Shown: one piece after another, positions 3,220 through 64,000 of the stretch
How the letters are laid out: every line of letters begins with the position of its first letter
How positions within the stretch are numbered: the stretch's first letter is position 1
Source of the DNA: Mesostigma viride
Taxonomy: Eukaryota > Streptophyta > Mesostigmatophyceae > Mesostigmatales > Mesostigmataceae
DNA length: 64,000 nt
Direction of reading: 5' to 3'
Assembly: GCA_009746045.1 (NCBI GenBank)
Contig: RPFO01000667.1
Location: 2,526,317-2,590,316, forward strand
Translations under genes and position numbers: made by a program
The notes under the pieces: generated by a model
Seen by the model: the letters and a program-made list of their open reading frames with translations, nothing else
Told to the model about the DNA's origin: nothing
Databases searched by the model: none

Positions 3220-3591
3220 TTAACCCCTAAATGGGCAGAAATACTGCCGATGCATCGGCTGTAACTTCACAATTTTGCAAACCAGATGCCATCCAACCTA
3301 CCCATATCCAATGGCTGTCCTTGGGGGCCAAGCATGTCCATGAGTTGCCCTTCGGGTTGGTATATCGCAACCTTACATATATTCATTGAGAATGATAGAT
3401 TACGAAGGTGAGATAGGCATGCAACATAAGGAAAAAACCGATGACTGGGAGAATAACCCTGAAGAAATTAATAGTAATCTGACACAGACATCCAAGGATC
3501 ACGCCAGCGGCACAAGGTACAACTAACTATACATCACAAAACTACACGCAGCAACAGCGCTGCCGGCCCACCATGCAGGCCTGGAAGGAAT

Positions 3592-6500
3592 CTAGACCGC
3601 GTGGGTCGCGACAAAGTCGGCCCGGGTGCGGCGGAATAACACATCAGCCACGGTGCGAGTGAGGGCGAGTGACAGACGCTGCCGCCAATACGAGGACCAC
3701 GTGCGGGCCGACCACGGGGCGGTCTGACCCTCGAGGTCGAGGCGGTCTTCACGGCGCTGGCAGCACTCGTGGAAAAACTCCGCTGTCTTGGGGCCCATGG
3801 CCCCGAACTCCTCAAGGACAAAGGGGATGACCCGGTGGGGCCCCACATTGCCGTAGGAGGCAAACTTGTCGCGCTCAGCCACAGCGGCAGCAGCGCCGGC
3901 ATCCACAGCCGCCCGGAGGATGTGGCGACCGGAAAGCGGCCGAGCCACGGAGACATCGATGAGCAGGTGGCAACCCTGCCCGTCGTAGTCAAGCACGGTA
4001 ATGTCGGGGCGGTGGTTGGGTGAGTAGAGGGCGGCCCCATCCGCGTCCTCGCACTTAATGGTGGAGTGGGGAAAGACCGACCGAACCATGGCACACACCA
4101 CCCGGAGGAGAGCGGTATGGAGATAGAGGAACCAGTTCTGGTTCTGCTGGCCACCCATGCACGCGATGTAGTGCGTCCCAGTAGTATCCAGAGCAAGCCC
4201 GCAGCTGCCGCAGGACGCACCCGCCGTGATGAGAGGTTGCGGGGCAAAGAGCTGGTGGCGGAGAGCGATGGCGTAAAGGGCCGGAACCAGTGTGAACAAA
4301 GGGCTCATGGGGAGGGCGCGCAGGAATGCGGACCCCACGCTCCCCTCAAGGGAAACGGAGTGAAGCCAAGCCTTCCCCTGATCGTTCAAGCTCGCATGCA
4401 GACCCATCCAGTCGGCACAGTGTAGTATACCCGCGTAGGTCTTTTGTTGTTTTTCATGAACGCAGGCAGGGAAGACACTAGGACTGACGACAGTGGACAC
4501 GCCGGGCGTGCCCCGGGGCAGGCGACGGTGGACGGCCTGAGCGGGGCGGACGAGGTCGCAAGCCTGCTGGATCCCGAGGTAAGAATCCTGCACAGCCTGC
4601 ACAAAGGGGAAGGGGGATGGGGTGACCAAGTCGGGAATGGCGCTGACGGCGCTGGGGACCAACCGGCGGATCTCCGCCCAGGCCTGAGCAACAGAGCCAA
4701 GGAAGGCGGCGGGGGCGAGGCGGGCGGCGCGGGTGAGCCCACACCCGCCCATGCGGCAGGGGAGGGTGGCCAAGCGCATGGAGTGAGCTGGCAGGCTAGG
4801 GCCGGGGAGGAGCACCTGCAAGGCGGCCTGAATGCGCTCGTCATGGCCTTCCGCGGCAAGCCGCACCAAGTGGGGGGGAGCGCCACGGAGCCAGTGAACC
4901 ACCCGCGGGTGGGCGCAAAACCACAGGAGGAGCCCTTTGGTCTGGGGGTCCTTGAGGCGCGCCCAAGTCTCAAGGACATGGGTGCGCTGTTCCACGGTGG
5001 CCCGGAGCTCCTCTTCGACGTAGTCAGGGTCACCCACAGGGACGCCCAGGCACGAGAAACCACGCGCCCGCGCCAATGCCCCCGGGATAGCCGCGGGGAA
5101 GCCAGAGCAGTCCCCCTGGGGCGAAAAGACTGCACACTTGGGGAGGGTGAGCCGAAGGTTGATGGCCGCCATGGCCACTTCAAGGGCAGCCAGGGCGGCA
5201 ACCACAGCGTCGGCCGGGCCAAGGGCATGGATATCGTCCATGTAGGCGAGGAGCACGACATCCGGGTGCGCAGCGTGGACACCTTGGAGAGCCTTGTGCA
5301 GCGGGGCAGACAGGTAAAAGGGGCCGAGGGGGTCACCTTGCTGGGTTCCCGTGCGGGAAGCGATGTCGGCGAACGTCCCATCCTCCATGAGGAAGGAGAG
5401 TTGAGTGGGTTCGCCGTAGCAGGCTGCTGTCCACGCAAGAAGGTCAGGGAACGCCTCGCCGACGGCCTCAAAGATGCTAGCCTTGGTGACAGCATTGAAC
5501 GCATTGTGGCAATCCACCTTCAGCGCCACATGGGTCGGATGCGTCTCGAGGTAGGCCTGAACTGTGTGCACGATGATGTCGCTGCCCCCTTTGGTGGCGA
5601 CGCCAAGCTGGGCCGCGACGGACTCCTCAGTATCACTCCGGTTGGGGCAGAAGTAGGCGCGAAACTCGGGGGCCTTTTGGCGACAAATGACCTTACTCAC
5701 CAGCTTGCGTAGGACCTCGCCGCAAGCAATGGGACGAACGCGGCCAGCAGGCGGGGGGACGTCGTCTTTCAGGAGGGCAATGAGGCGTGCCCCAGCCAGC
5801 CAAGGGCGCGCCGCGGGGGCCAGGGACCCCGCGGCCAAGTCGGCGGCAGCCTCAAAGAGTGCGGTCGCCCCGCCATGGCCCGCCATCACGGAGAGGTGCT
5901 CGTAGCGCCAGCCTGAGGGGCCGGTGGAGGAGGCGTTCGGCAGATCCTTCAGCACAGCCGTGAAGATGTCCAGGTCCAGGACAATAGGCGGGGGCGGGGG
6001 GGTGGCCGGGGCGGGCACCGCAAAGGCCGGTTCGTCGGGGTGAAGGTCGCGCAAAGCCTGCAGGGTCGGGGGAGTGGAGGGAGCCAACGCGGTCAGTTCA
6101 AGCTTTTGCATGGCCCGGCTCAATTCACCTACCTTCACCAACCGCATGACGTCAGCTTCCACCCGGGCAAAGGAGGCGGCCCCCGACACCCGGGTGGAGG
6201 CCGGAGGCTGCAGCGCCCACAGCCCTTCCCAATCCCCGAGGAGGAACCGCCGGCAGCGAGCGATGACCGCACCCTGTACGCCACGCACGCCCCGCTCCAA
6301 CGGCGCTAAGAGGAGCCGGGGGGTGACGAGAAACAGCTTGTGGCCGAGTTCGTCGAGAGGGTGACTATGCATCCGGGCCAGGGAAAGCAGGGCGCAGCGC
6401 GTAAACAAGCTCCGGGCGCGGTGAGGGACGTCCGGGAGCGTCATGCAAGGGTTGCGCGCACAGGCGGCAAAAGGGAGCGTGGCCAGGAATGCCCAGCCTG

Positions 6501-7512
6501 CCGAGAGGTCCCCCGGATCGCTCGTACCCTGCGATGCCGGTGGAGGGGCAGGGGCCGACCGAGGGGCCGCCCCGGACCGGGAGGCCGGTGCGGCCGCCGG
6601 GCCGCCGGGCAGGCCGTTCTGGGGGGTTTGGCGGCGGCACTGCCGCTCATGCTGGTACCGCCCGTGGATCGAAAAAATCCGCTGGCAATGGGCTGCCGGG
6701 CAGCGGTAGCAGTCCATGGCGCGCATGGCGGCCTCCGTGATGTGGGGGTGGGAAGCCCGAATGTGCACCAGCAACGAATTCCGGTTGGGCAGGCGCGCGC
6801 CACACGGGTCACCAAGGGGACCATCGACTTGGCAATAATGGAAGCCATCTGAGGGGGTGCGCCCACCCGGTTGGGCCGGCCCGGGTCGAGAGGGGGAGGG
6901 GTCGGGAGCACCCTCAGCCAGAGGAACTACAGCTGCAGCGGAACCCAGGGCGGGGCCGGCCGCCGGGCGGTCAGCAGGGCTCGTGGCAGCCGAGGACAAG
7001 ACCGGCGCGGGGACGGCCCCCACGGCCGGGAGGGGGGCGCTGGAGGAGGCAGCCAAGCCGGCGCGCGACCCACGACCACGCACAGGGGAGGCAGGTGTCG
7101 GGGCAGGCGCGTGGGACTGGCGGCGCACGGACACGGGCGAGGGCCCCAGCGGGAGAACGCCAGGAGGCAAGGGGGAAAGGACCGCGGCCCGGCAAAGGGG
7201 GCAGGTGGCGGAGGTCGTGTGCAAGCTCGTGGCGATGCAAGCTTGATGGAAGACGTGGCCGCAAGCAGGGAGGCGGCAGAGACCGTCACCAGGGCGAGGC
7301 AGGTCCAAGCAGATGGGGCAGGAGGGGCCGCTGGCAGTGACATCCACCAAGTGGGCCGGCCCGTAGTGGGCGGGCGCCGCGTCCCACCCCAGCTCCCAGC
7401 TCGGCAGTCGGGCGATCTCATCGGCGGAGAGAAGACGGCGGCGCGGACCAGCAGGGTGCCAGACATGGGGGATGCCCGCAAGCTCGAGCACATCGTGCAA
7501 GATGGCGGGCAC
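3592..7512 (-). CDS. LINE ORF2: RING, zinc fingers, reverse transcriptase, restriction-like endonuclease
   Basis: This 1306-residue polyprotein would carry out target-primed reverse transcription. Residues 65-107 are a RING-H2 finger (CPIC, then CGHVFH, then CPLC). Residues 227-255 and 271-292 are two C2H2/C2HC-like fingers, as in the N-terminal DNA-binding region of R2-type LINEs. The RT spans about 525-830 with motif A VDCHNAFN (666-673), motif B QQGDPLGP (724-731) and catalytic YMDD (757-760). A zinc knuckle CGSC-x9-H-x3-C (1101-1118) precedes the PD-(D/E)XK nuclease: RPD at 1168-1170 and LIDVS at 1184-1188. The order RT, knuckle, RLE is that of R2/CRE/NeSL-type LINEs. The intact frame suggests a recent insertion. 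The RING finger is an unusual addition. Upstream of the Met the frame remains open into ORF1. Confidence 0.9.
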   Translation of the reverse strand: MPAILHDVLELAGIPHVWHPAGPRRRLLSADEIARLPSWELGWDAAPAHYGPAHLVDVTASGPSCPICLDLPRPGDGLCRLPACGHVFHQACIATSLHTTSATCPLCRAAVLSPLPPGVLPLGPSPVSVRRQSHAPAPTPASPVRGRGSRAGLAASSSAPLPAVGAVPAPVLSSAATSPADRPAAGPALGSAAAVVPLAEGAPDPSPSRPGPAQPGGRTPSDGFHYCQVDGPLGDPCGARLPNRNSLLVHIRASHPHITEAAMRAMDCYRCPAAHCQRIFSIHGRYQHERQCRRQTPQNGLPGGPAAAPASRSGAAPRSAPAPPPASQGTSDPGDLSAGWAFLATLPFAACARNPCMTLPDVPHRARSLFTRCALLSLARMHSHPLDELGHKLFLVTPRLLLAPLERGVRGVQGAVIARCRRFLLGDWEGLWALQPPASTRVSGAASFARVEADVMRLVKVGELSRAMQKLELTALAPSTPPTLQALRDLHPDEPAFAVPAPATPPPPPIVLDLDIFTAVLKDLPNASSTGPSGWRYEHLSVMAGHGGATALFEAAADLAAGSLAPAARPWLAGARLIALLKDDVPPPAGRVRPIACGEVLRKLVSKVICRQKAPEFRAYFCPNRSDTEESVAAQLGVATKGGSDIIVHTVQAYLETHPTHVALKVDCHNAFNAVTKASIFEAVGEAFPDLLAWTAACYGEPTQLSFLMEDGTFADIASRTGTQQGDPLGPFYLSAPLHKALQGVHAAHPDVVLLAYMDDIHALGPADAVVAALAALEVAMAAINLRLTLPKCAVFSPQGDCSGFPAAIPGALARARGFSCLGVPVGDPDYVEEELRATVEQRTHVLETWARLKDPQTKGLLLWFCAHPRVVHWLRGAPPHLVRLAAEGHDERIQAALQVLLPGPSLPAHSMRLATLPCRMGGCGLTRAARLAPAAFLGSVAQAWAEIRRLVPSAVSAIPDLVTPSPFPFVQAVQDSYLGIQQACDLVRPAQAVHRRLPRGTPGVSTVVSPSVFPACVHEKQQKTYAGILHCADWMGLHASLNDQGKAWLHSVSLEGSVGSAFLRALPMSPLFTLVPALYAIALRHQLFAPQPLITAGASCGSCGLALDTTGTHYIACMGGQQNQNWFLYLHTALLRVVCAMVRSVFPHSTIKCEDADGAALYSPNHRPDITVLDYDGQGCHLLIDVSVARPLSGRHILRAAVDAGAAAAVAERDKFASYGNVGPHRVIPFVLEEFGAMGPKTAEFFHECCQRREDRLDLEGQTAPWSARTWSSYWRQRLSLALTRTVADVLFRRTRADFVATHAV

Positions 7513-7526
7513 GGCCGCACCCGCGC

Positions 7527-8696
7527 TCAGCTCAAGAACACGCCCCCCCCCGCATCGTACAGAACCAGGTCGCCGGCGTGCACGGTGACAGGAGCCCCGA
7601 AGTCAACGCGCAGGCGGGCGGCTTGCGCTGGGGTGACCGCCGTAGTCAAGCGCCCGTGGGCCTGCGCAACAAGGCCGGCCGAGCCGGGCCCGGCAGAGGC
7701 AAGAAACGTGTGCAGCTGAGGGCGATCGAGCAAGGCGTGGTCGGTGGCCCCCCCAGCGAGATATGTCGCACGGGCGGCCTGCTGGGCCTGCACGGCAAGC
7801 CCTGTAGCAAAGAGCACCACCGCCTGCGCCACTTGAGCGTCCAGATTCAGGAGCCATTCTTGGCGCACCGCGGGCAGGTGCCAAGGCAGGCGGCCGCCGG
7901 CATGGTAGTCCTCGAGGACAAACCCCCAAAGCGTGGAGGCAAGGACAGGGGGGGAGGCTGCCTGCAGCATGTGCCGGACACGAACCACAAGGGCACTAAA
8001 TTCAGGGGGCCGTGGGAGCGTAGGAAACGCCGCGTGCAAGCCGACAGCGTCCAACAGCAAGGGGCAATACAGCCAAGAGAACGTGGCGTGCCGGAGCGCG
8101 CTGACGCCCGCAATGTTGGTGGGGGGCCAAACGGAGAAGTCGTGGGACCCAAGCGCGGCCGACCAGGGGCCCACCACAGGAGTCGCCGCAGGGTGTCCCA
8201 CAGCCTCAGGGAGGAGAGCCGCCAGGGACCCCTCAAGCACAGGAGGACGCAGGTCAGTGGCCACCGCCGTGCTGGCCGGAGGTGGATCCCCAGAGCTAGG
8301 CGGGGCAGGGCCAGGGGACCCCGCGGAGGGGCCGGACGTGACGGCGCGGGGAGAGCGGGAGCACGGTGTGGAACCCTCCACGAGGTCCGCAAGGCCCAGG
8401 AGAGGGTCCAGCGAGGGGCTGCGGGAGGGGGCGCGGGCCGAATGGGATCCCGGGGTCGACACGGCCGCGCGTCGGGAGCCTAGGGACGGCCGAGGCGGGG
8501 CCACGCAATGAGGGCACGCCCAAGGACCCGGGGGAGGCAGCCGGAAGAGGGGCGGGACCAAGCAGCGCGTGTGCCAGCCGCATTGGCACGAATCACACAC
8601 AAGGAGACGGGGGGCATCCTCACCACTGTGGCAGACCTCGCACACAAGCGAGAGTGGCACAGGGGCGCCACGACCGCCGTCGTCCAGGTCGCCCAT
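7527..8696 (-). CDS. LINE ORF1: PHD-finger protein
   Basis: This is the first ORF of the RLE LINE, 389 codons. Residues 19-64 form a complete C4HC3 PHD finger: C19, C22, C34, C37, H42, C45, C61 and C64, with the usual Trp two residues before the last cysteine pair (W59). PHD fingers read histone tails, and PHD-containing ORF1 proteins are known in some CR1-like LINEs, so a chromatin-targeting role for the RNP is a reasonable inference. The rest is Pro/Ala/Ser-rich (about residues 68-180) and then an alpha-helical, Ala/Leu-rich domain (about 185-375) that I do not recognise. The ORF closes at 7527 just after a run of nine G. The ORF2 frame is open across this point, so ORF1 and ORF2 could be one protein interrupted by a slip, or be linked by frameshifting. 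Confidence 0.8.
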   Translation of the reverse strand: MGDLDDGGRGAPVPLSLVCEVCHSGEDAPRLLVCDSCQCGWHTRCLVPPLFRLPPPGPWACPHCVAPPRPSLGSRRAAVSTPGSHSARAPSRSPSLDPLLGLADLVEGSTPCSRSPRAVTSGPSAGSPGPAPPSSGDPPPASTAVATDLRPPVLEGSLAALLPEAVGHPAATPVVGPWSAALGSHDFSVWPPTNIAGVSALRHATFSWLYCPLLLDAVGLHAAFPTLPRPPEFSALVVRVRHMLQAASPPVLASTLWGFVLEDYHAGGRLPWHLPAVRQEWLLNLDAQVAQAVVLFATGLAVQAQQAARATYLAGGATDHALLDRPQLHTFLASAGPGSAGLVAQAHGRLTTAVTPAQAARLRVDFGAPVTVHAGDLVLYDAGGGVFLS

Positions 8697-8924
8697 CTCC
8701 TGCAGGTGCGCCGCGATGCGTAAGGACCGACGCGGCGCAGGGCGCCACTAGGCAGCGCATCCCGCGCCCGGGAGGTGCGTCGTCGTGAAGGAGGCATGGG
8801 GGAGGTGCGTAAAACAACGGAACCGGAAGCGCGGGGGGAGAGCGAGATGCGGACGCGGGGGGTTTGGGGGGCGTGCCCCCCAAGCGGGGGGTTTGGGGGG
8901 CGGCAGCCCCCCAACGCGGGGCGG
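8697..8924 (-). promoter_or_regulatory. GC-rich leader between LINE ORF1 and the monomer array
   Basis: About 230 bases link the ORF1 start to the first monomer. They contain G/C runs including two near-copies of CGGGGGGTTTGGGGGGC with CCCCCC blocks (8858-8915), which could form strong secondary structure or G-quadruplexes in DNA or RNA. They differ from the monomer sequence, as a non-repeated tether does in monomer-type LINE 5' UTRs. Confidence 0.45.
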
Positions 8925-11900
8925 CCGCGGTGCCGCACCTCGGCGCAGGTTTTTTCAGCTGTGCATGGAGAAAAAAACGTGTCTCAATCCAGGAACCCCC
9001 GTCGGTTCATCATGTCAGCCTAGAAAACTGGAGCGGTGGAGCCACAACTAACGGGAAAGCCGCATTCAAATTCGCCTAGCCCACGGGTCACAATTGGCCG
9101 ACAGGTAGATGCAGCCAGCCCCGGGCGTGTCGCAGACAGTAATCACTACGTAGGCCGCGGTGCCGCACCTCGGCGCAGGTTTTTTCAGCTGTGCATGGAG
9201 AAAAAAACGTGTCTCAATCCAGGAACCCCCGTCGGTTCATCATGTCAGCCTAGAAAACTGGAGCGGTGGAGCCACAACTAACGGGAAAGCCGCATTCAAA
9301 TTCGCCTAGCCCACGGGTCACAATTGGCCGACAGGTAGATGCAGCCAGCCCCGGGCGTGTCGCAGACAGTAATCACTACGTAGGCCGCGGTGCCGCACCT
9401 CGGCGCAGGTTTTTTCAGCTGTGCATGGAGAAAAAAACGTGTCTCAATCCAGGAACCCCCGTCGGTTCATCATGTCAGCCTAGAAAACTGGAGCGGTGGA
9501 GCCACAACTAACGGGAAAGCCGCATTCAAATTCGCCTAGCCCACGGGTCACAATTGGCCGACAGGTAGATGCAGCCAGCCCCGGGCGTGTCGCAGACAGT
9601 AATCACTACGTAGGCCGCGGTGCCGCACCTCGGCGCAGGTTTTTTCAGCTGTGCATGGAGAAAAAAACGTGTCTCAATCCAGGAACCCCCGTCGGTTCAT
9701 CATGTCAGCCTAGAAAACTGGAGCGGTGGAGCCACAACTAACGGGAAAGCCGCATTCAAATTCGCCTAGCCCACGGGTCACAATTGGCCGACAGGTAGAT
9801 GCAGCCAGCCCCGGGCGTGTCGCAGACAGTAATCACTACGTAGGCCGCGGTGCCGCACCTCGGCGCAGGTTTTTTCAGCTGTGCATGGAGAAAAAAACGT
9901 GTCTCAATCCAGGAACCCCCGTCGGTTCATCATGTCAGCCTAGAAAACTGGAGCGGTGGAGCCACAACTAACGGGAAAGCCGCATTCAAATTCGCCTAGC
10001 CCACGGGTCACAATTGGCCGACAGGTAGATGCAGCCAGCCCCGGGCGTGTCGCAGACAGTAATCACTACGTAGGCCGCGGTGCCGCACCTCGGCGCAGGT
10101 TTTTTCAGCTGTGCATGGAGAAAAAAACGTGTCTCAATCCAGGAACCCCCGTCGGTTCATCATGTCAGCCTAGAAAACTGGAGCGGTGGAGCCACAACTA
10201 ACGGGAAAGCCGCATTCAAATTCGCCTAGCCCACGGGTCACAATTGGCCGACAGGTAGATGCAGCCAGCCCCGGGCGTGTCGCAGACAGTAATCACTACG
10301 TAGGCCGCGGTGCCGCACCTCGGCGCAGGTTTTTTCAGCTGTGCATGGAGAAAAAAACGTGTCTCAATCCAGGAACCCCCGTCGGTTCATCATGTCAGCC
10401 TAGAAAACTGGAGCGGTGGAGCCACAACTAACGGGAAAGCCGCATTCAAATTCGCCTAGCCCACGGGTCACAATTGGCCGACAGGTAGATGCAGCCAGCC
10501 CCGGGCGTGTCGCAGACAGTAATCACTACCGTAGGCCGCGGTGCCGCACCTCGGCGCAGGTTTTTTCAGCTGTGCATGGAGAAAAAAACGTGTCTCAATC
10601 CAGGAACCCCCGTCGGTTCATCATGTCAGCCTAGAAAACTGGAGCGGTGGAGCCACAACTAACGGGAAAGCCGCATTCAAATTCGCCTAGCCCACGGGTC
10701 ACAATTGGCCGACAGGTAGATGCAGCCAGCCCCGGGCGTGTCGCAGACAGTAATCACTACGTAGGCCGCGGTGCCGCACCTCGGCGCAGGTTTTTTCAGC
10801 TGTGCATGAAGAAAAAAACGTGTCTCAATCCAGGAACCCCCGTCGGTTCATCATGTCAGCCTAGAAAACTGGAGCGGTGGAGCCACAACTAACGGGAAAG
10901 CCGCATTCAAATTCGCCTAGCCCACGGGTCACAATTGGCCGACAGGTAGATGCAGCCAGCCCCGGGCGTGTCGCAGACAGTAATCACTACGTAGGCCGCG
11001 GTGCCGCACCTCGGCGCAGGTTTTTTCAGCTGTGCATGGAGAAAAAAACGTGTCTCAATCCAGGAACCCCCGTCGGTTCATCATGTCAGCCTAGAAAACT
11101 GGAGCGGTGGAGCCACAACTAACGGGAAAGCCGCATTCAAATTCGCCTAGCCCACGGGTCACAATTGGCCGACAGGTAGATGCAGCCAGCCCCGGGCGTG
11201 TCGCAGACAGTAATCACTACCGTAGGCCGCGGTGCCGCACCTCGGCGCAGGTTTTTTCAGCTGTGCATGGAGAAAAAAACGTGTCTCAATCCAGGAACCC
11301 CCGTCGGTTCATCATGTCAGCCTAGAAAACTGGAGCGGTGGAGCCACAACTAACGGGAAAGCCGCATTCAAATTCGCCTAGCCCACGGGTCACAATTGGC
11401 CGACAGGTAGATGCAGCCAGCCCCGGGCGTGTCGCAGACAGTAATCACTACGGTAGGCCGCGGTGCCGCACCTCGGCGCAGGTTTTTTCAGCTGTGCATG
11501 AAGAAAAAAACGTGTCTCAATCCAGGAACCCCCGTCGGTTCATCATGTCAGCCTAGAAAACTGGAGCGGTGGAGCCACAACTAACGGGAAAGCCGCATTC
11601 AAATTCGCCTAGCCCACGGGTCACAATTGGCCGACAGGTAGATGCAGCCAGCCCCGGGCGTGTCGCAGACAGTAATCACTACGGTAGGCCGCGGTGCCGC
11701 ACCTCGGCGCAGGTTTTTTCAGCTGTGCATGAAGAAAAAAACGTGTCTCAATCCAGGAACCCCCGTCGGTTCATCATGTCAGCCTAGAAAACTGGAGCGG
11801 TGGAGCCACAACTAACGGGAAAGCCGCATTCAAATTCGCCTAGCCCACGGGTCACAATTGGCCGACAGGTAGATGCAGCCAGCCCCGGGCGTGTCGCAGA

Positions 11901-12220
11901 CAGTAATCACTACCGTAGGCCGCGGTGCCGCACCTCGGCGCAGGTTTTTTCAGCTGTGCATGAAGAAAAAAACGTGTCTCAATCCAGGAACCCCCGTCGA
12001 TTCATCATGTCAGCCTAGAAAACTGGAGCGGTGGAGCCACAACTAACGGGAAAGCCGCATTCAAATTCGCCTAGCCCACGGGTCACAATTGGCCGACAGG
12101 TAGATGCAGCCAGCCCCGGGCGTGTCGCAGACAGTAATCACTACGGTAGGCCGCGGTGCCGCACCTCGGCGCAGGTTTTTTCAGCTGTGCATGAAGAAAA
12201 AAACGTGTCTCAATCCAGGA
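8925..12220 (-). repeat. 14.3 tandem copies of a 230/231-bp monomer forming the LINE 5' UTR
   Basis: Units begin with GGCCGCGGTGCCGCACCTCG at about 8925, 9154, 9384, 9614 and onward. They are almost identical. Seven early units are 230 bp; later ones gain one base in CACTAC(C/G)GTAGG. A G-to-A change (GCATGGAG to GCATGAAG) is found in the unit near 10801 and in all four outermost units. The array stops mid-unit at 12220, directly against the target duplication, as expected for a 5'-truncated monomer array. Each unit contains the E-box-like CAGCTG and A/T runs. Promoter activity is inferred by analogy with rodent L1 monomers. Confidence 0.9.
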
Positions 12221-12231
12221 CTTACATATAT

Positions 12232-13037: not shown

Positions 13038-15248
13038 CTAATAGCCCTGCTGCACCGCAAAATCAGCCCGCGTACGGCGGAGCATGATGTCCGCCATGGC
13101 CCGAGTCAGCGCCACCGACAAGCGCTGACGCCAATATGACGTCCAGGTCCGCGCCGACCATGGGGCCCGCTGGCCCTCCAGGTCCAGCCGGTCCTCCCGG
13201 AGCCGGCAACACTCCTTGAAGAAGGCGGAGGTCAGGGGCCCCATGGCCCCAAACTCCTCCAGGACAAAGGGCACCACACGATGGTGCCCGACGTCGCCGT
13301 AGGCCAGGAGCTTGGCCCGCTCCGCCCGGTCCGCCGTGTAACCTGCCGTGAGGGAGGCCCCAGCCACGTGGCTAAGAGCCAAGGGCCGCGCCACCGAAAC
13401 GTCAATAAGCAGATGCCGGCCACCCCCCTCAAAGTCCAGCACCACGATGTCAGGCCGGTGGTTGGGGGAATAGAAGGCAGCGCCATCCGCATCCTCGGAC
13501 CGGATGTTCGCGTGGGGGAAAACCGACCGAATCATGGCGAGCACCACCGTCAGGAGGACAGTGTGCAAATACAAATACCAATTCTGATTCTGTTGGCCCC
13601 CCATGCAGGCAAGGTAGTGAGTCCCCGTGGGATCCAGCGGCTGCCCACAGCTACCACAAGGCCGCCCGGCCGGAACAAGAGGCTGCGGGGCAAATAGCTG
13701 GTGCCGGAGCGCCACCGAGTAGTGGCTGGGAGCCAAGGCGAATGGGGGGGCCATGGGAAGAGCACGAAGGTACGCCGAGCCCACACTCCGCAAGGAAAGC
13801 GAGAACAGCCACGCACGTCCCTGGGCGTTGAGGTCCGCGAAAAGAGCAATCCAATCAGCCGTGTGCAGAATACCCGCGTAGGTTTTCTGGTGTTTATCGA
13901 TGACGCGAGCAGGGAATGCGGCGGGAGATTGAACGGAGGCGACCGAGGGAGTGCCGCGAGGGAGGTGGCGCTGTACCGCCTGAGCGGCACGGACGGGAGA
14001 ACAGGCCTGCTGGATCTCAGCATAGGCCTCCTGGATGGCGGTGACGAAGGGCAAAGGGCTGCTGGGGTCCAGGAGGTCAGGCGCTGCCGTTGCCAAAAGG
14101 GGCAGGAGCCGGCAGCTTTCCGCCCACGACTGAGCGACGGAGCCCAAAAAGGCTGCTGGGGCCAGCCGGGCGGCACGAGTCAGACCGCAGCCACCCATCC
14201 GTGCAGGCAGGGAGGCAATGCGAATAGCATGTGGCGGGAGGTCGGGGCCCGGGACCAGCTGCGCCAAGGCCGACTGGATGCGTTCGTCGTGGCCCTCGGC
14301 GGCCAGCCGGACCTGAGACGGAAGAGCGCCCCGGAGCCAGTGAACGACGCGAGGGTGAGCGCAAAACCACAGAAGCAGACCCTTGGTCTGCGAATCATGA
14401 AGGCGCGCAATCAAGGGCAGTACCTCAGTGCGTGCCTCGAGGGCGGCCCGCAGAGCATCGATGACAAACGCGGGGTCGCCAACCGGAACGCCGAGGACAT
14501 CCAACCCATGGAGGCGCTCGTCCCGGCCCAAGAGCTGGGGCGGAAAGCCGGAGCAATCACCTTGGGGCGAGTACACCGCGCACTTGGCAAGGGTCAACTG
14601 GAGGTTGATGTCGGCCACCGCGGTCTGCAGTGCCAGCAGAGCCGCGGTGGTGTCCGGCACAGGGCCCAGAAGGTAGATATCATCCAAGTAGGCCTGAATA
14701 GCGACCGCCGGGTGGGCAGCATGGACCGCTTGGAGGCAACCCTGGAGGGGGGCGGCAAAGTACAGGGGTCCCAGGGGGTCCCCTTGCTGGGTGCCCGACC
14801 GCGACAGCAGGCCGCCGCGAGTGCCGTCCTCCATGATGTGAACCAGTTGGCCGGGCTGGCCGTAGCACACGGCTGTCCAAGCGTACAAGTCCTCGAAGGA
14901 CTCCATGACGGCCGCAAACATGCTGGCGCGGGACAGACTGTTGAACGCGTTGTGGCAGTCGACCTTGACGACAGCGTGGGTGGGGTGGGCCTCGAGGTAG
15001 GCCTGCACCGAATGGATGAGGATATCCGCCCCGCCTGGAGTCGTCACCCCCAGCTGGGCCGCCACCGAGGTCTCACCCGCTGCGAGGGGCGGGCAGAAAA
15101 AGGCACGGAGCTCGGGCGCCTTTTGGCGGCAGATCACTTTGCCCACGAGCTTGCGGAGCACCTCACCGCAGGCGATCGGGCGCACCTTGCCCTCGGGGGG
15201 GGCAAGACACCCTTGAGCAGAGCGAGGAGGCGAGCGCCCGCTAACCAC
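13038..15248 (-). CDS. RLE LINE ORF2, C-terminal part (RT and endonuclease)
   Basis: True homology starts at about 15195 (GKVRPIACGEVLRKL), just past the C-run frameshift. The RT has motif A VDCHNAFN, motif B QQGDPLGP and, at the catalytic box, AYLDDIY instead of AYMDDIH; YLDD is still a workable RT box. The zinc knuckle CGSC-x9-H-x3-C and the RLE residues RPD and LIDVS are intact. The stop is close to the Q-rich C-terminus of the sister copy. Apart from the one frameshift the protein looks functional, so the copy is young. Confidence 0.8.
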   Translation of the reverse strand: MVSGRSPPRSAQGCLAPPEGKVRPIACGEVLRKLVGKVICRQKAPELRAFFCPPLAAGETSVAAQLGVTTPGGADILIHSVQAYLEAHPTHAVVKVDCHNAFNSLSRASMFAAVMESFEDLYAWTAVCYGQPGQLVHIMEDGTRGGLLSRSGTQQGDPLGPLYFAAPLQGCLQAVHAAHPAVAIQAYLDDIYLLGPVPDTTAALLALQTAVADINLQLTLAKCAVYSPQGDCSGFPPQLLGRDERLHGLDVLGVPVGDPAFVIDALRAALEARTEVLPLIARLHDSQTKGLLLWFCAHPRVVHWLRGALPSQVRLAAEGHDERIQSALAQLVPGPDLPPHAIRIASLPARMGGCGLTRAARLAPAAFLGSVAQSWAESCRLLPLLATAAPDLLDPSSPLPFVTAIQEAYAEIQQACSPVRAAQAVQRHLPRGTPSVASVQSPAAFPARVIDKHQKTYAGILHTADWIALFADLNAQGRAWLFSLSLRSVGSAYLRALPMAPPFALAPSHYSVALRHQLFAPQPLVPAGRPCGSCGQPLDPTGTHYLACMGGQQNQNWYLYLHTVLLTVVLAMIRSVFPHANIRSEDADGAAFYSPNHRPDIVVLDFEGGGRHLLIDVSVARPLALSHVAGASLTAGYTADRAERAKLLAYGDVGHHRVVPFVLEEFGAMGPLTSAFFKECCRLREDRLDLEGQRAPWSARTWTSYWRQRLSVALTRAMADIMLRRTRADFAVQQGY

Positions 15249-16759
15249 TCGCGCGCAGCGGGAGGAACGCGACCAGCCGCCAGGTCAATGAGGGTGTCAA
15301 AGAGAATGTCCTCGCCCCCATGCCCCACCAGGACCTCCAAGTGCTCGTAGCGCCAGCCCGACGGCCCGGTAGAGGAAGCCCGCGGGACCGCACGCATCAC
15401 CTCCAGGAAGCAGTCGCGGTCCAGCCGGAGGGGGGCCGGCAGGGGGTCCGGCACGGGCAGCTGGAATCCGGGCTCCGCAGGGTGAAGAGCCTCCAAGGCC
15501 GCCAGGGTAGCCGCATTGGCGGGGGCGAGCTTGGCCATTTCCAAGCGGGTCATGGCCCGGCTGAGCTGCCCCTCGCGGACGAGGCGGATGACGTCGGCGG
15601 CCACCCGCTCGAAGTTGACCTCCCCCGACAGCCGGGCCGTGCGCGGGGGCGGCACGCCAAACAGCCCCTCCCAGTCCCCCTGCAGAAAGCGTCGGCAACG
15701 GGCAATAACCGCACCCTGGAGGCCGCGCACACCACGCCCGAGAGGGGTGAGGAGCAGGCGGGGGGTCACCATGTGCAGTTTAAAGCCCAGCGGGTCGTCC
15801 GGAGCGGCGTGCATGCGCCGGAGAGAAACGATTGCACATTGCGCGAAAAGGCTACGCGCGCGGTGGGGGAGGTCGGTCAGGGTAGACGTCGGGTTGATGG
15901 CGCATGCATCCCAGGGAACCGTGTCAAGCCAACGCCAACTGGCCGAGTAGTCGGGCGGCGGGGGCTGGGAGCCGGTGGGAGCCGAGGCGGGAGGGGGGGA
16001 GGGGGCCGGGACTGCTGGCCGGTTGAGGGGCCGTTGAGCAACACAGGCGCGCGCGTGCTGAGCGCGCCCGTGAATGGAGTACACCCGCTGGCAGTGAGCT
16101 TCCGGGCACCGGTAACAGCTCATGGCCTGCAGATCCGCCGCGCCGAGATCGGGGTGCACAGCGCGAAGGTGCTGGCAGAGGAGGTTACGGTTGTGGAACA
16201 CACCCGCACACGGGGACCCCGTGGGAAGCAGCACGGCACACCGGTGAAGGCCGTCGGCGGGCGCTGAGTGGCGGGGAGCGGCGCCAGCAAAGGCAGGACG
16301 TGGGGCCTGCGGCGTCTCCCCAGCCGGGCCGGCAGGCGCGCGCACCACGACCCGACCAGCGCCCGGCAGGCCCGCCGGGGCCACGGAGGAGGCAGTGCCC
16401 ACCGGGGAGACCCCCAGCGGAGGGGGATCGAGAACGCCGGCGCCCCTCCCAGGGGGACTCGCCAGCGCGCCCGCGACCACCCCAGGCCCCGGCAACGAGG
16501 CCGGGGGCGGAGGCCGAGGGGTCGGGGAGGCAGCTGGCCCCGGGGCCCGGTGGGGACCCGGCAGGGGACCCAGCGAGACCGGGGGCGGGCCGAGAGGAAG
16601 CGCAGTCCCAGGGGGCGGCACAACAGCCCGGCACAACGGGCAGCGCGGCACGGAGTGGAGCAAGCTGCGCGCGATGCACGCTTGATGGAATGTGTGGCCG
16701 CACGCGGGCAGGCGACACAAGCCATCCCCCGGCCGGAAGGGCTCAAGGCAGATGGCACA
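15134..16759 (-). CDS. RLE LINE ORF2, N-terminal half (RING, zinc fingers, RT start), truncated
   Basis: The frame enters from the truncated 5' end (the apparent Met at 16771 lies in the target duplication and is not native). It begins at once with the RING-H2 finger (CAIC, CGHTFH, CPLC). A Pro-rich linker, two C2H2-like fingers (CAGVFHNRNLLCQHLRAVH; CPEAHC with RAQHARAC) and the start of the RT (SSTGPSGWRYEHL) follow. It loses frame at a seven-C run near 15198 (LLKGVLPPPR), where the intact copy continues RVRPIACGEVL. The next frame, 13038-15248, carries that continuation. Confidence 0.8.
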   Translation of the reverse strand, partial: CAICLEPFRPGDGLCRLPACGHTFHQACIARSLLHSVPRCPLCRAVVPPPGTALPLGPPPVSLGPLPGPHRAPGPAASPTPRPPPPASLPGPGVVAGALASPPGRGAGVLDPPPLGVSPVGTASSVAPAGLPGAGRVVVRAPAGPAGETPQAPRPAFAGAAPRHSAPADGLHRCAVLLPTGSPCAGVFHNRNLLCQHLRAVHPDLGAADLQAMSCYRCPEAHCQRVYSIHGRAQHARACVAQRPLNRPAVPAPSPPPASAPTGSQPPPPDYSASWRWLDTVPWDACAINPTSTLTDLPHRARSLFAQCAIVSLRRMHAAPDDPLGFKLHMVTPRLLLTPLGRGVRGLQGAVIARCRRFLQGDWEGLFGVPPPRTARLSGEVNFERVAADVIRLVREGQLSRAMTRLEMAKLAPANAATLAALEALHPAEPGFQLPVPDPLPAPLRLDRDCFLEVMRAVPRASSTGPSGWRYEHLEVLVGHGGEDILFDTLIDLAAGRVPPAAREWLAGARLLALLKGVLPPPRARCARSPAVRCSASSWAK

Positions 16760-16775
16760 TATAACAAACATATAT

Positions 16776-31220: not shown

Positions 31221-31225
31221 CCGCC

Positions 31226-32025
31226 ACCAGGTGAACTTTGCCCCGCAACCACTCGTCACGGCGGCCCGCCCGGCGCGCCATGCATGCGGCAGCTGCGGCC
31301 GGCTTGCTCTTGATACCCCTGCATGGGGCCCACTAGTACCGTCTGTGATCGCGTACGTGCATGGGTGGCCAGCACAACAAGAACTGGTTCCTCTATCTCC
31401 GTACCGCTCGACTCCCCCGGGTGCATGGTGTGCCCCTTGGTTTGGTCGGTCTTCAGTCCCCACTTCACCATCAAGTGCGAGGACGCGGATGGGGCCGCCC
31501 TCTACTCACCCCGGCCGACCAGGGCAACCACCGGCTCGACATTACCTTCCTCGACTACAATGGGCAGGGTTCCCACCTGCAATTAAATCGATGCCCTCCG
31601 TGGCTCGGCCGCTGAGTTTCCGGTCGACCGCCACATCGATCCTTCGGGCAGCTGTGGATCATTGCCGGCACTGCTGCCGCAGCCTGTGGCTGAGCGCGAC
31701 AAGTTTGCCTCCTACGGCAATATAGTGGGCCACCGCCGGGTCGATGTCCCCTTTGTCCTAGCTTGAGAAGTTCGGGGCCATGGGGCCGCCGAGACGACGG
31801 TGTTTTTTCACGAGTGCTGCCAGCGGTGTGAAGACGTCCGCCTCGACCTCAGACGGCCCGGGTCGAAGACTGCTGTGGTCTGCCCGGATCCGTGGTGCTC
31901 AAATTGGCGGCAGCGCCTGTCCCTAGCCCTTACTCGTACCGTGCCTGGCAGGCTGAGTACAGGTTATTCCGCCCCAGATGTCCAGGCCGACTTCGTTGCG
32001 GCCCATGGCCGGGGTATAGCTCCTC
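31226..32025 (+). pseudogene. Decayed RLE-LINE ORF2 C-terminus
   Basis: Homology to the endonuclease end of the 3383-12220 element: FAPQPLVTAA, then ACGSCG, the zinc-knuckle start, IKCEDADGAALYSP, SVFSPHFT, then ERDKFASYGN and a FFHECCQRCED block. It switches frame at least five times and contains insertions, so it is much older than the two other copies and has no known flanking duplication. Confidence 0.65.
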
Positions 32026-47856: not shown

Positions 47857-49671
<1,815 letters not shown>

Positions 49672-49904
49672 CAGTGTTGTTGTTGTTGTTGTTGTTGTTT
49701 AGGCCATTTTGTACCCCAGTCAACCTGTCGCCCCTCGCCTTGGGGACAGCGCCTCCACCATCCGATGGCCCCAATCCCTCGCGTCGCGTCTATGCCTATG
49801 CCTCGGGCAACTCTGTACCATCTATGCGTTTTTTCGGGTTTTCGGGATCCATCTATGGGCTGTACTTGCTTGCGCTCGCCTCCCCACTCCCCTGATTACC
49901 GTCA

Positions 49905-61447: not shown

Positions 61448-62202
61448 TCAGCTGGCTAGGTGAAAAATATTATTCCTGAGCTTCCAGTGAGAAGGCACTG
61501 GACCTGGACCACTGTACCATAGTGAAGGTGCCAACACTGGGTAAGGACCCAACCAGAGTGGTTGCAGTTTCCTGCATTGCTCCTTCTCAGGCAGCACTCT
61601 GTTGGCTTCCAACAACACCAAGTCCCCAGGAGCTACAAAGGAATGACTGGCCACCGTTTGCTGCCAGGCGTTAGTCAGGTACTTGTCCTGTGTCCTCAAC
61701 AGCTGGGTAGCCACAATGCTGTGAGCCTCCTGGAAGGAAGCCAACAACTGCTGGACTGAACCAAGACGTCGCTGGAAAGGGCCTTCAGCGTCTCTGTCAG
61801 GCAGTTCCAAGTCGAATGGTGTCAAGGGACACTGGCCATTGCAGATCACGAAGGGGGACATCTGGTGAGGAGCCAGAGGAGAGTTGTTGATTGCGAACTC
61901 TATGAAAGGTATCTTCTTGTCCCAGTCCTTGTTGTCGTGGTACAATAGTGCTTTTGACACTCCCTGACAATTCTGTTCATCCTCTCCACCGCCCCAGTAC
62001 TGGCACACCTGTATGCCACACCGAATGCCAGCTTAGTGTCTAGGATGTCAAAGAATGACTTCCAAAACCCTGACAGCCAAAGGGGGTCCTGATCAGTGAT
62101 GATCACTCTAGGCATGCCGTGCAGACGGTAGATCTCCTTCATAAACAAATCCACACACTGTGCAGCGGTGAGATGAGTATTGCAAGGAATCAGATGGCAC
62201 AT
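61448..62202 (-). pseudogene. Integrase catalytic core end and C-terminal domain
   Basis: Frame 62202-61900 has the second catalytic Asp in ITDQDPLW and the Glu in TGAVERMNR, about 35 residues apart, with an additional Cys-rich end. Frame 62008-61448 continues with IPFIEFAINNSPL, MSPFVICNG, a helical linker and GDLVLLEANRVL, the start of the C-terminal SH3-like region, ending at HWKLRNNIF. The two frames overlap by ~100 bases, indicating a small indel. Confidence 0.75.
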
Positions 62203-62869
62203 CCTGGAAGCCTGTCCATGACCACAAGGATCCTGTCATTGCCACCATCTGACATGGGAGACCACAGATAAAATCCATAGTCACACTGATCCAAGGGCGC
62301 AGGGGAATGGGCATAGCCATGGGAAAGATGGGCGTGGCTTGGTTCCTGACCTTATTTCTCTGGCAGGAGTCACAGGAATCCACATAGGCCTTAACATCCT
62401 GATAAAGGCCAGGCCACCAAAACCTCTGCTGCACCTCATGAAGTAGCTTAGCATAACCAGGATGACACGCAGTCACATCGTCATGGAAACAATGTAACAC
62501 TGTGGGAATGGCCATCTCAGGCACATACACTTTTCTAGTCACCGTGTGCTCTGCATCATGAGTGTGAACATACAGAACGCCCTCCCAGTATTCTACAGGT
62601 CTATTGCCAAAGTTGCCCCTCTGGATAGCTGCAGTAGCCATGTCCTCCGTCTTGGTGAAGGCCTTGATGACGTCCAGCAGGGAAATATTTAAAGGATTAG
62701 GCAACACCAGGTCCTTGTCAGGTCCCAGGGGCTGCATCTGCATCTCCTCTTCCTGCCCAGGGCTAGCCACCAACTGCTTGGATGAGACAGTAGTAGCTAT
62801 AGGCCCTTTTGACCTTGCCATCACCTGAGAGGCCAACACCTTGGACCGGCCTACCAACACAGGGTCCAT
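62108..62869 (-). CDS. Integrase zinc-binding domain and first catalytic Asp
   Basis: 253 codons. The HHCC zinc-binding domain reads HDDVTACHPGYAKLL then YVDSCDSCQRNK. The first catalytic Asp is in VTMDFICGLP. The first ~90 residues are a spacer between RNase H and integrase. The last ~40 are out of frame; true coding passes to 62202-61900. Confidence 0.75.
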   Translation of the reverse strand: MDPVLVGRSKVLASQVMARSKGPIATTVSSKQLVASPGQEEEMQMQPLGPDKDLVLPNPLNISLLDVIKAFTKTEDMATAAIQRGNFGNRPVEYWEGVLYVHTHDAEHTVTRKVYVPEMAIPTVLHCFHDDVTACHPGYAKLLHEVQQRFWWPGLYQDVKAYVDSCDSCQRNKVRNQATPIFPMAMPIPLRPWISVTMDFICGLPCQMVAMTGSLWSWTGFQDVPSDSLQYSSHRCTVCGFVYEGDLPSARHA

Positions 62870-63468
62870 GACCCACTTCCTGGGCCTACCTCTGCTGCGC
62901 CTAGCAGGGCTCCCTCACCTGGCTGCACTGTGGGAGTGGGCACCACACCTTCAGGACTTCTCCTAAGACTGTCAGACAGTGACTGGACACCCTCCTGGAC
63001 GCCTGTCAACTCTGGGACAGAGCCCTGGTCGATGAGCATCACGGGACCACCGTTATTCCCTACAGGTGGTGTCAACAGTTGAGAAACCTTCTGGTTGTTG
63101 GCCTGAGCTCTAGTCAAGGCTCCACACTCTACCACAGAAATCAGGGCAGCACAGATGTCCAAGTCCTCATGAAAACTTCCCATCAAATCCCTCCTCCTGG
63201 ACAGGGCGTCAGGCACCACATTCTGCGTACCAGGAATGTACCTCACAGAGAAAGGTCCAAACCCCCCCAGGAACTCCATCCATCCAGCCATCCTCTTACT
63301 CATCCGGGTCTGTTCCAACACATGTACCAAGGGCCTGTGGTCAGTCATCAGGGTAATAGACTCGTTGCCCTGCCCATCCTGGCGCTGCTGGCCACAGAAA
63401 ACTGAGCCCCCTTCAGTAGGTGTTCCCACTTGTGACAGGCCACCACCAATCCCAGCAGCTCTGCTCAT
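62851..63468 (-). pseudogene. RNase H domain end and connection to integrase
   Basis: ITLMTDHRPLVHVLEQTRMS, GFGPFSVRYIPGTQNVVPDALSRR are the end of the Ty3-type RNase H, with the last catalytic Asp in PDALSRR. A spacer with little similarity follows. The first ~15 residues are out of frame. Confidence 0.75.
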
Positions 63469-63973
63469 GAACAGGGTAGTTACGTTCTGCAGACGTCATA
63501 CTCCTGGACATGTATTCCACTGGTTGAGGGCCCTTACCATGATCTTGCATTAGTACTGCACCAATAGCACCCTGTGAGGCATCAGACCTAACCTGGTATG
63601 GCAAGTCTGGGTTGGGGCCCACCAACAAGGGAGCAGTGGTAAGCTTCTGCTTCAACACATCAAAAGCTTGCTGGCATGCTGCAGTCCACTCAAAGGGAAC
63701 ATCCTTCTTGAGCAGGGCTAACAGGGGACCAGAGATGGCCGCCATGTCAGGGATGAACCGTCGGTACCAGCCCACCAGGCCCAGAAAGGATCTGACATCC
63801 TGAGCTGACTTCAACACAGGCCACTCCAAAACAGCAGAGACCTTGCTGGCCTCAGGAGTCATACCTGCAGCGCTCAGCTGGTAGCCCAGAAACTTCACCT
63901 CTTGGCCCCACTCCACCTTGGACCTCTTCACCGACAGATGATACTGATGGATCACCTTAAGGACCTCCTCCAC
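63413..63973 (-). CDS. Reverse transcriptase thumb and RNase H start
   Basis: Starts inside the RT (VKRSKVEWGQEVKFLGYQLS), then VRSFLGLVGWYRRFIPDMA, the Ty3-type connection, and FEWTAACQQAFDVLKQKLTT. RNase H begins with QVRSDASQGAIGAVLMQ. Frame is lost at about 63440, after NYPVHEQSCW. Catalytic YxDD lies beyond the window edge. Confidence 0.8.
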   Translation of the reverse strand: MEEVLKVIHQYHLSVKRSKVEWGQEVKFLGYQLSAAGMTPEASKVSAVLEWPVLKSAQDVRSFLGLVGWYRRFIPDMAAISGPLLALLKKDVPFEWTAACQQAFDVLKQKLTTAPLLVGPNPDLPYQVRSDASQGAIGAVLMQDHGKGPQPVEYMSRSMTSAERNYPVHEQSCWDWWWPVTSGNTY

Positions 63974-64000
63974 GTTCTCCAGGTGCTCCCTGAAGGTACG

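Follow-up and report, generated by a model that had tools for sequence, protein, structure and literature searches.

The question raised by this locus is whether a tandem array of 230-bp units in the genome of Mesostigma viride is a satellite lying beside a LINE or a part of that LINE, and what the array does for the element in the latter case. The array is found in a stretch of 64,000 nucleotides that was analysed as a whole and is referred to as the window; the LINE next to it is termed LINE-A. Reading the array as the 5′ UTR of LINE-A is strongly supported by the results given below. The array probably provides the internal promoter of a young LINE of the restriction-like endonuclease (RLE) type that targets (AT)n, with start sites within its monomers.

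Array and LINE as one insertion

The whole insertion spans positions 3383–12220 (8838 bp) and is read on the minus strand, which is its sense strand. An 11-bp direct repeat, CTTACATATAT, lies at 12221–12231 and again at 3372–3382. In sense order the locus consists of the target-site duplication (TSD) ATATATGTAAG, an array beginning TCCTGGATTGAG, a tether, ORF1, ORF2, the 3′ UTR and the TSD again:

12221–12231, minus strand: 5′ target-site duplication, sense ATATATGTAAG (12231–12221 in sense order)
8923–12220, minus strand: 5′ UTR monomer array with 15 anchors and a unit of 230/231 bp (from TRF and anchor spacing)
8697–8922, minus strand: GC-rich tether without monomers, leading from the array to ORF1, with a 65-nt part like the tether of a sister family, LINE-B
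7527–8696, minus strand: ORF1, 389 aa, PHD finger at residues 19–64
3592–7512, minus strand: ORF2, 1306 aa, with RING finger (64–108), reverse transcriptase (589–824), CCHC (1101–1118) and RPD...D restriction-like endonuclease
3383–3591, minus strand: 3′ UTR, ending ...CTATCATTCTCAATGA at 3383
3372–3382, minus strand: 3′ target-site duplication, sense ATATATGTAAG

The TSD flanks array and LINE together, as the earlier note on this DNA had proposed, and single insertions of this kind were found at other loci too. The far end of the array was likewise seen to be mid-unit and to adjoin the TSD. The interval that had been given for the array, 8925–12231, does contain a 230-bp tandem array but includes the TSD, the array proper being 8923–12220.

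TRF reported a 230-bp unit in 14.3 copies with 99% matches at 8923–12220, and the 15 anchors on the minus strand were spaced 230 or 231 bp apart, the last unit being partial. With position 1 of the unit set at TCCTGG, the outermost unit of the window array begins at position 1, TCCTGGATTGAG. The 14 complete units fall into 6 types. The six next to the LINE are identical, the ten closest to it carry at most one change each relative to the commonest unit, and variants sit towards the outer end. Among typed array stretches, some of them short or from the same contig, 35 out of 43 hold one or two unit types and the types differ between arrays; one array (L012) has 12 identical 231-bp units and another (L084) 11 identical 230-bp units. 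Judging from these few types per array, different from one array to the next, units seem to be homogenised or expanded inside arrays. TATA was not found in the 230-bp unit, and its one CCAAT, at position 128, is a lead only.

The PHD finger of ORF1 corresponds to 8500–8645 and the RING finger at the N-terminus of ORF2 to 7186–7320; the ORF2 frame opens with GTG in a bacterial-type ORF listing. A run of nine Gs is found just before the ORF1 stop. A frame error between ORF1 and ORF2, arising from an assembly slip of the window copy alone, was considered and rejected, since the same run is present in L063, L077 and L017, the three other copies where it is visible. In an alignment of 16 sequences, residues C1101, H1114, C1118 and H1132 of the ORF2 C-terminus are invariant while C1104, P1169 and D1170 are kept at 90% or more. 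The reverse transcriptase is of the LINE type and nearest to R2, as in RLE-type (R2-group) LINEs, and the C-terminus combines CCHC with a PD-(D/E) endonuclease without an APE domain. R2 also provided the closest solved structures to the reverse transcriptase plus C-terminus of ORF2; in the PDB search the ORF2 sequence alone matched only RING domains and a profile reached R2. The RLE type assigned in the earlier note is therefore borne out by both the C-terminus and the R2-like fold. L1 encodes an APE endonuclease. The endonuclease/exonuclease/phosphatase family was absent among domain matches up to E 0.1, and the element, which resembles the rodent L1 monomer promoter in working, is not an L1. 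The presence of PHD in ORF1 and RING in ORF2 may point to a link with host chromatin or ubiquitin.

Copies and target sites across the genome

A 34-base pattern spanning the array/tether junction was searched against the whole genome with up to 2 mismatches. This resulted in 86 monomer-to-LINE boundaries, 43 per strand, compared to 0 for the reversed-pattern control. Counting the monomers upstream of these copies, a check proposed in the earlier note, gave at least one monomer at 72 boundaries, a partial monomer at 12 and none at 2. Sixty of the boundaries were measured; 46 had 225 bp or more, counted as one monomer at least, 12 had a partial monomer and 2 (L110 and L116) had none. The remaining 26, made up of the window and 25 plus-strand copies, all have an array-query match of ~600 bp just upstream; one of these 25 (C1:1.95M) adjoins a run of N and one (C1993) reaches the contig end. 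When minus-strand copies were read for 2.7 kb, 17 out of 40 were still in monomers at the end. LINE copies lacking monomers but with intact 5′ ends had been named as evidence against the 5′ UTR reading; truncation can account for the 14 boundaries that fall short of a full monomer.

Arrays without an exact boundary were drawn from the array-query matches listed, 150 of 203, and the LINE side of nine was read. Six of these (L016, L062, L063, L064, L065 and L066) continue into the body of the LINE and are variant boundaries of LINE-A, one (L060, C1471:55.3–56.5 kb) ends in other sequence without a LINE, and the reads of L059 and L061 stayed within monomers or had ambiguous ends. Many arrays without a LINE, the other counter-evidence that had been named, were thus for the most part not encountered. 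The array of contig C834 extends to the contig end (L011). At the opposite end of the element, a 268-bp query with the 3′ UTR gave a 100% match at at least 40 other places, 40 of 1543 first-look candidates having been scored.

Reading of both ends was tried at 25 loci. The 3′ end was readable at 18 of these, and both ends at 17; at 6 loci the stretch did not include a 3′ end, and 1 was incomplete. TSDs of 7–14 bp were obtained by a fixed rule in 10 of the 17 two-ended loci, the window included; C1324 and C1579 have a TSD plus filler, read by eye, and 5 loci are without a trustworthy TSD. Sharing between 5′ and 3′ flanks exceeded that of shuffled pairings, as 0 of 20000 permutations reached the sum observed for the 17 loci (at four loci the 5′ flank was extended by the first bases of the element, in the shuffles too). 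Flanks shared 9 or more bases in 8/17 matched pairs versus 28/272 mismatched ones. ATATA adjoins 18 out of 18 readable 3′ ends and is the preferred target. Several targets (those of the window, L014/L017/L029, L033, L038, L078 and L100) are copies of one repeat, and in L078 and L100 that repeat passes unbroken through the target sequence of the window, which is the empty-site form.

Positions at which copies begin

The 5′ ends of arrays were mapped onto the unit in two sets. In set 1, 72 sequences gave 53 readable starts, with 17 running off the stretch and 2 without a monomer, and merging of 5 repeats with like flank and phase reduced these to 48. Three loci whose array lay at the edge of the stretch (L021, L022 and L030) and one with a run of N (L025) were left out before the count, and some of the 48 starts come from arrays without an exact boundary, e.g. 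L020, whose other end is L060. Unit positions 183–189 accounted for 13 of the 48 starts and positions 227–1 for 10, whereas in 3000 trials with random positions no 7-nt interval received more than 10 of 48. Set 2 comprised 600-bp stretches from 19 further loci; 12 starts were readable and 7 ran off, the stretch length leaving longer arrays unresolved. Six of the 12 fell at 182–189 (4 at 183–189) and none at 227–1. For all 60 starts, and with the first interval widened by one base to 182–189 after set 2 was seen, 19 lie at 182–189 compared to 2.1 expected and 10 at 227–1 compared to 1.3 expected, with 31 outside both clusters. Six copies with only 113–124 bp of monomer begin at the 182–189 site of the last unit. 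By eye, GG followed by YTCC is common to the clusters.

In mouse L1, the sites at which the outer monomer is truncated have been interpreted as start sites and set against CAGE data (PMC6454616). By analogy, the 5′-end peaks of LINE-A may be the start sites of the parent copy. Promoter function of the monomers is likely, with the clustered 5′ ends as indirect support.

The clusters could instead be stops of the reverse transcriptase, in which case the array would still be the LINE's own and have some other role, e.g. in RNA packaging or structure. This is unlikely in our judgement. The strongest predicted RNA structure lies upstream of unit positions 111–135 and 154–156, at which only 2 of 60 arrays start, whereas positions 184–189 rank 109 to 210 and positions 228–1 rank 80 to 139 out of 230 in upstream structure; with such middling or weak ranks neither cluster lies where stops are most expected. 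The 227–1 cluster nevertheless lies directly 3′ of a weak predicted stem, so that stopping is possible there, and the 1543 first-look candidates (40 scored) of the 3′-end search set against 86 array boundaries hint at common truncation. Joining via bases shared with the target is an unlikely main cause of the clusters as neither resembles the AT-rich target by eye; at C1:264k the TSD overlaps the first two bases of an array start in the 227–1 cluster.

Transcription driven by a host promoter at the insertion site, for which a precedent exists in an RLE-type LINE (PMC3447711), is considerably less probable still. It predicts host sequence between TSD and monomers, whereas TSDs mostly adjoin monomers, and the examined copies lie at ATATA sites in differing flanks, which give no sign of a shared host promoter. 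That the arrays are an ordinary satellite which a LINE adjoins or has invaded is barely credible in general and is refuted for the window locus, where the TSDs and the fixed array/LINE boundary rule it out. Arrays are near-identical internally and L060 is an array end without a LINE, as a satellite would have it, but TSDs lie outside the array, 86 like boundaries occur in one orientation and the host flanks differ; L060 was the exception to the association of arrays with the mobile element.

If LINE-A has its internal promoter in the array, each 230-bp monomer would have its own start site, mainly at 182–189 and perhaps also at 227–1. Transcription would begin in an upstream monomer, and the transcript would span the monomers that follow, then the GC-rich tether, ORF1 with its PHD finger, and ORF2 with RING finger, reverse transcriptase and RLE. 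Target-primed reverse transcription would place a copy of this RNA at targets that contain ATATA, and a new copy would as a result begin at the start site of its parent. Every round would trim part of the outermost monomer, which homogenisation or expansion inside arrays may then refill.

A sister family and comparison with known elements

A LINE at 13038–16771 in the window is a 5′-cut copy of LINE-B, with an ORF2 69% identical to that of LINE-A over 715 aa. The two families were grouped at support 1.0 in a tree of 27 sequences, built from relatives found in this analysis. ORF2 relatives in Cymbomonas tetramitiformis and other sources show 36–49% identity (best 12 of 47), LINE-B being nearer to LINE-A than the Cymbomonas relatives are; the latter LINEs are uncharacterised and were compared with LINE-A in ORF2. 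Elsewhere in the window, degenerate fragments of a related LINE ORF2 (~40–47% identity) lie at 31222–32009, a (TGT) microsatellite of ~504 units at 48186–49699, and ORFs resembling, by eye, the integrase/RNase H of an LTR retrotransposon at 61448–64000.

In L015, which holds a longer LINE-B copy, a 170-bp unit is repeated 11.6 times at 100% identity and is followed by tether, ORF1 and ORF2. The ORF1 of this copy is related to that of LINE-A, being 54–59% identical in pieces with the PHD stretch included. The monomers of the two families have at best 9 nt in common (E 0.67), whereas the tethers are identical at 61 of 65 nt (score 108 compared to at most 39 in 200 shuffles). The GC-rich tether (8850–8922 and L015:1980–2060) contains inverted G/C runs, seen by eye, and is nearly identical between the families despite the mere 69% identity of their ORF2 proteins. 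A genome search with up to 3 mismatches resulted in 171 LINE-B boundaries (94+77; control 0), with a pattern that holds only nine monomer bases and of whose matches, 100 of them listed, only that in C965 was read. LINE-B arrays were read at L015 and at L090. By eye, each of these arrays starts a short way past an ATATAT stretch, and neither start coincides with a motif similar to GG/YTCC. At L137:470–500, which was read together with L015, a LINE-A 3′ end lies ~15 bases from the LINE-B array start, the two being neighbouring insertions at an ATATAT site.

Rodent L1 elements (L1Md A, Gf and Tf) have tandem monomers of ~200 bp 5′ of ORF1, in variable number and with preferred truncation sites (PMC6454616, PMC9022269). 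Their non-monomeric tether differs less from one subfamily to another than the monomers do (PMC6454616, PMC9022269), as is also the case for LINE-A and LINE-B. LINE-A has monomers of ~200 bp in variable number between target site and ORF1, a preferred 5′ truncation site within the unit, and a tether that is conserved between families with unrelated monomers. The monomer-plus-tether plan of rodent L1 is thus present in an R2-like LINE. Unlike rodent L1, LINE-A has an RLE, an R2-like reverse transcriptase, a PHD ORF1 and a RING finger, and here we infer the promoter activity.

SLACS and CZAR of trypanosomes (CRE clade) are RLE-type LINEs like LINE-A and have ~185-bp tandem repeats near the 5′ end. 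They insert only in SL RNA genes, with transcription inferred from the host SL RNA +1 (PMC3447711), whereas LINE-A uses ATATA sites. R2 inserts in 28S rRNA genes (PMC13188248) while LINE-A adjoins ATATA. FoTeR and MoTeR, the CRE-like telomeric LINEs of fungi, also have an RLE. FoTeR carries variable tandem repeats (VNTRs), mostly upstream of the reverse transcriptase ORF and identified with two programs of which one was set to units of 6–100 bp (PMC12857005), and the 5′ end of MoTeR bears tandem-repeat blocks as well as telomere-like repeats (PMC7367193). In contrast to LINE-A, both are telomere-associated, and the passages on them cited here make no mention of unit-phased 5′ ends (PMC12857005, PMC7367193). 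The remark in the earlier note that no such case was known in RLE-type LINEs needs qualifying, as upstream tandem repeats had already been described in others (FoTeR VNTRs, PMC12857005; also the 185-bp repeats of SLACS/CZAR). Our literature search, with most subscription papers outside its coverage, returned no description of an RLE LINE with a phased monomer promoter.

It is an old question, studied mostly in rodents, how LINEs retain a promoter when reverse transcription trims their 5′ ends. LINE-A and LINE-B add a second case that is independent of the first: their young copies are many, the monomers of the two sister families are unrelated, and a start-site footprint can be read from them. 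This allows a test of whether LINEs in general avoid promoter loss by means of monomer arrays. We see an even chance that RLE LINEs of this host evolve by equipping a conserved GC-rich tether with unrelated, self-contained promoter monomers in tandem, of 230 bp in LINE-A and 170 bp in LINE-B, and that every monomer fires from fixed positions; this would make them a convergent and complete counterpart of the rodent L1 monomer/tether promoter in LINEs with a different endonuclease. Satellite annotations may hide LINE 5′ UTRs.
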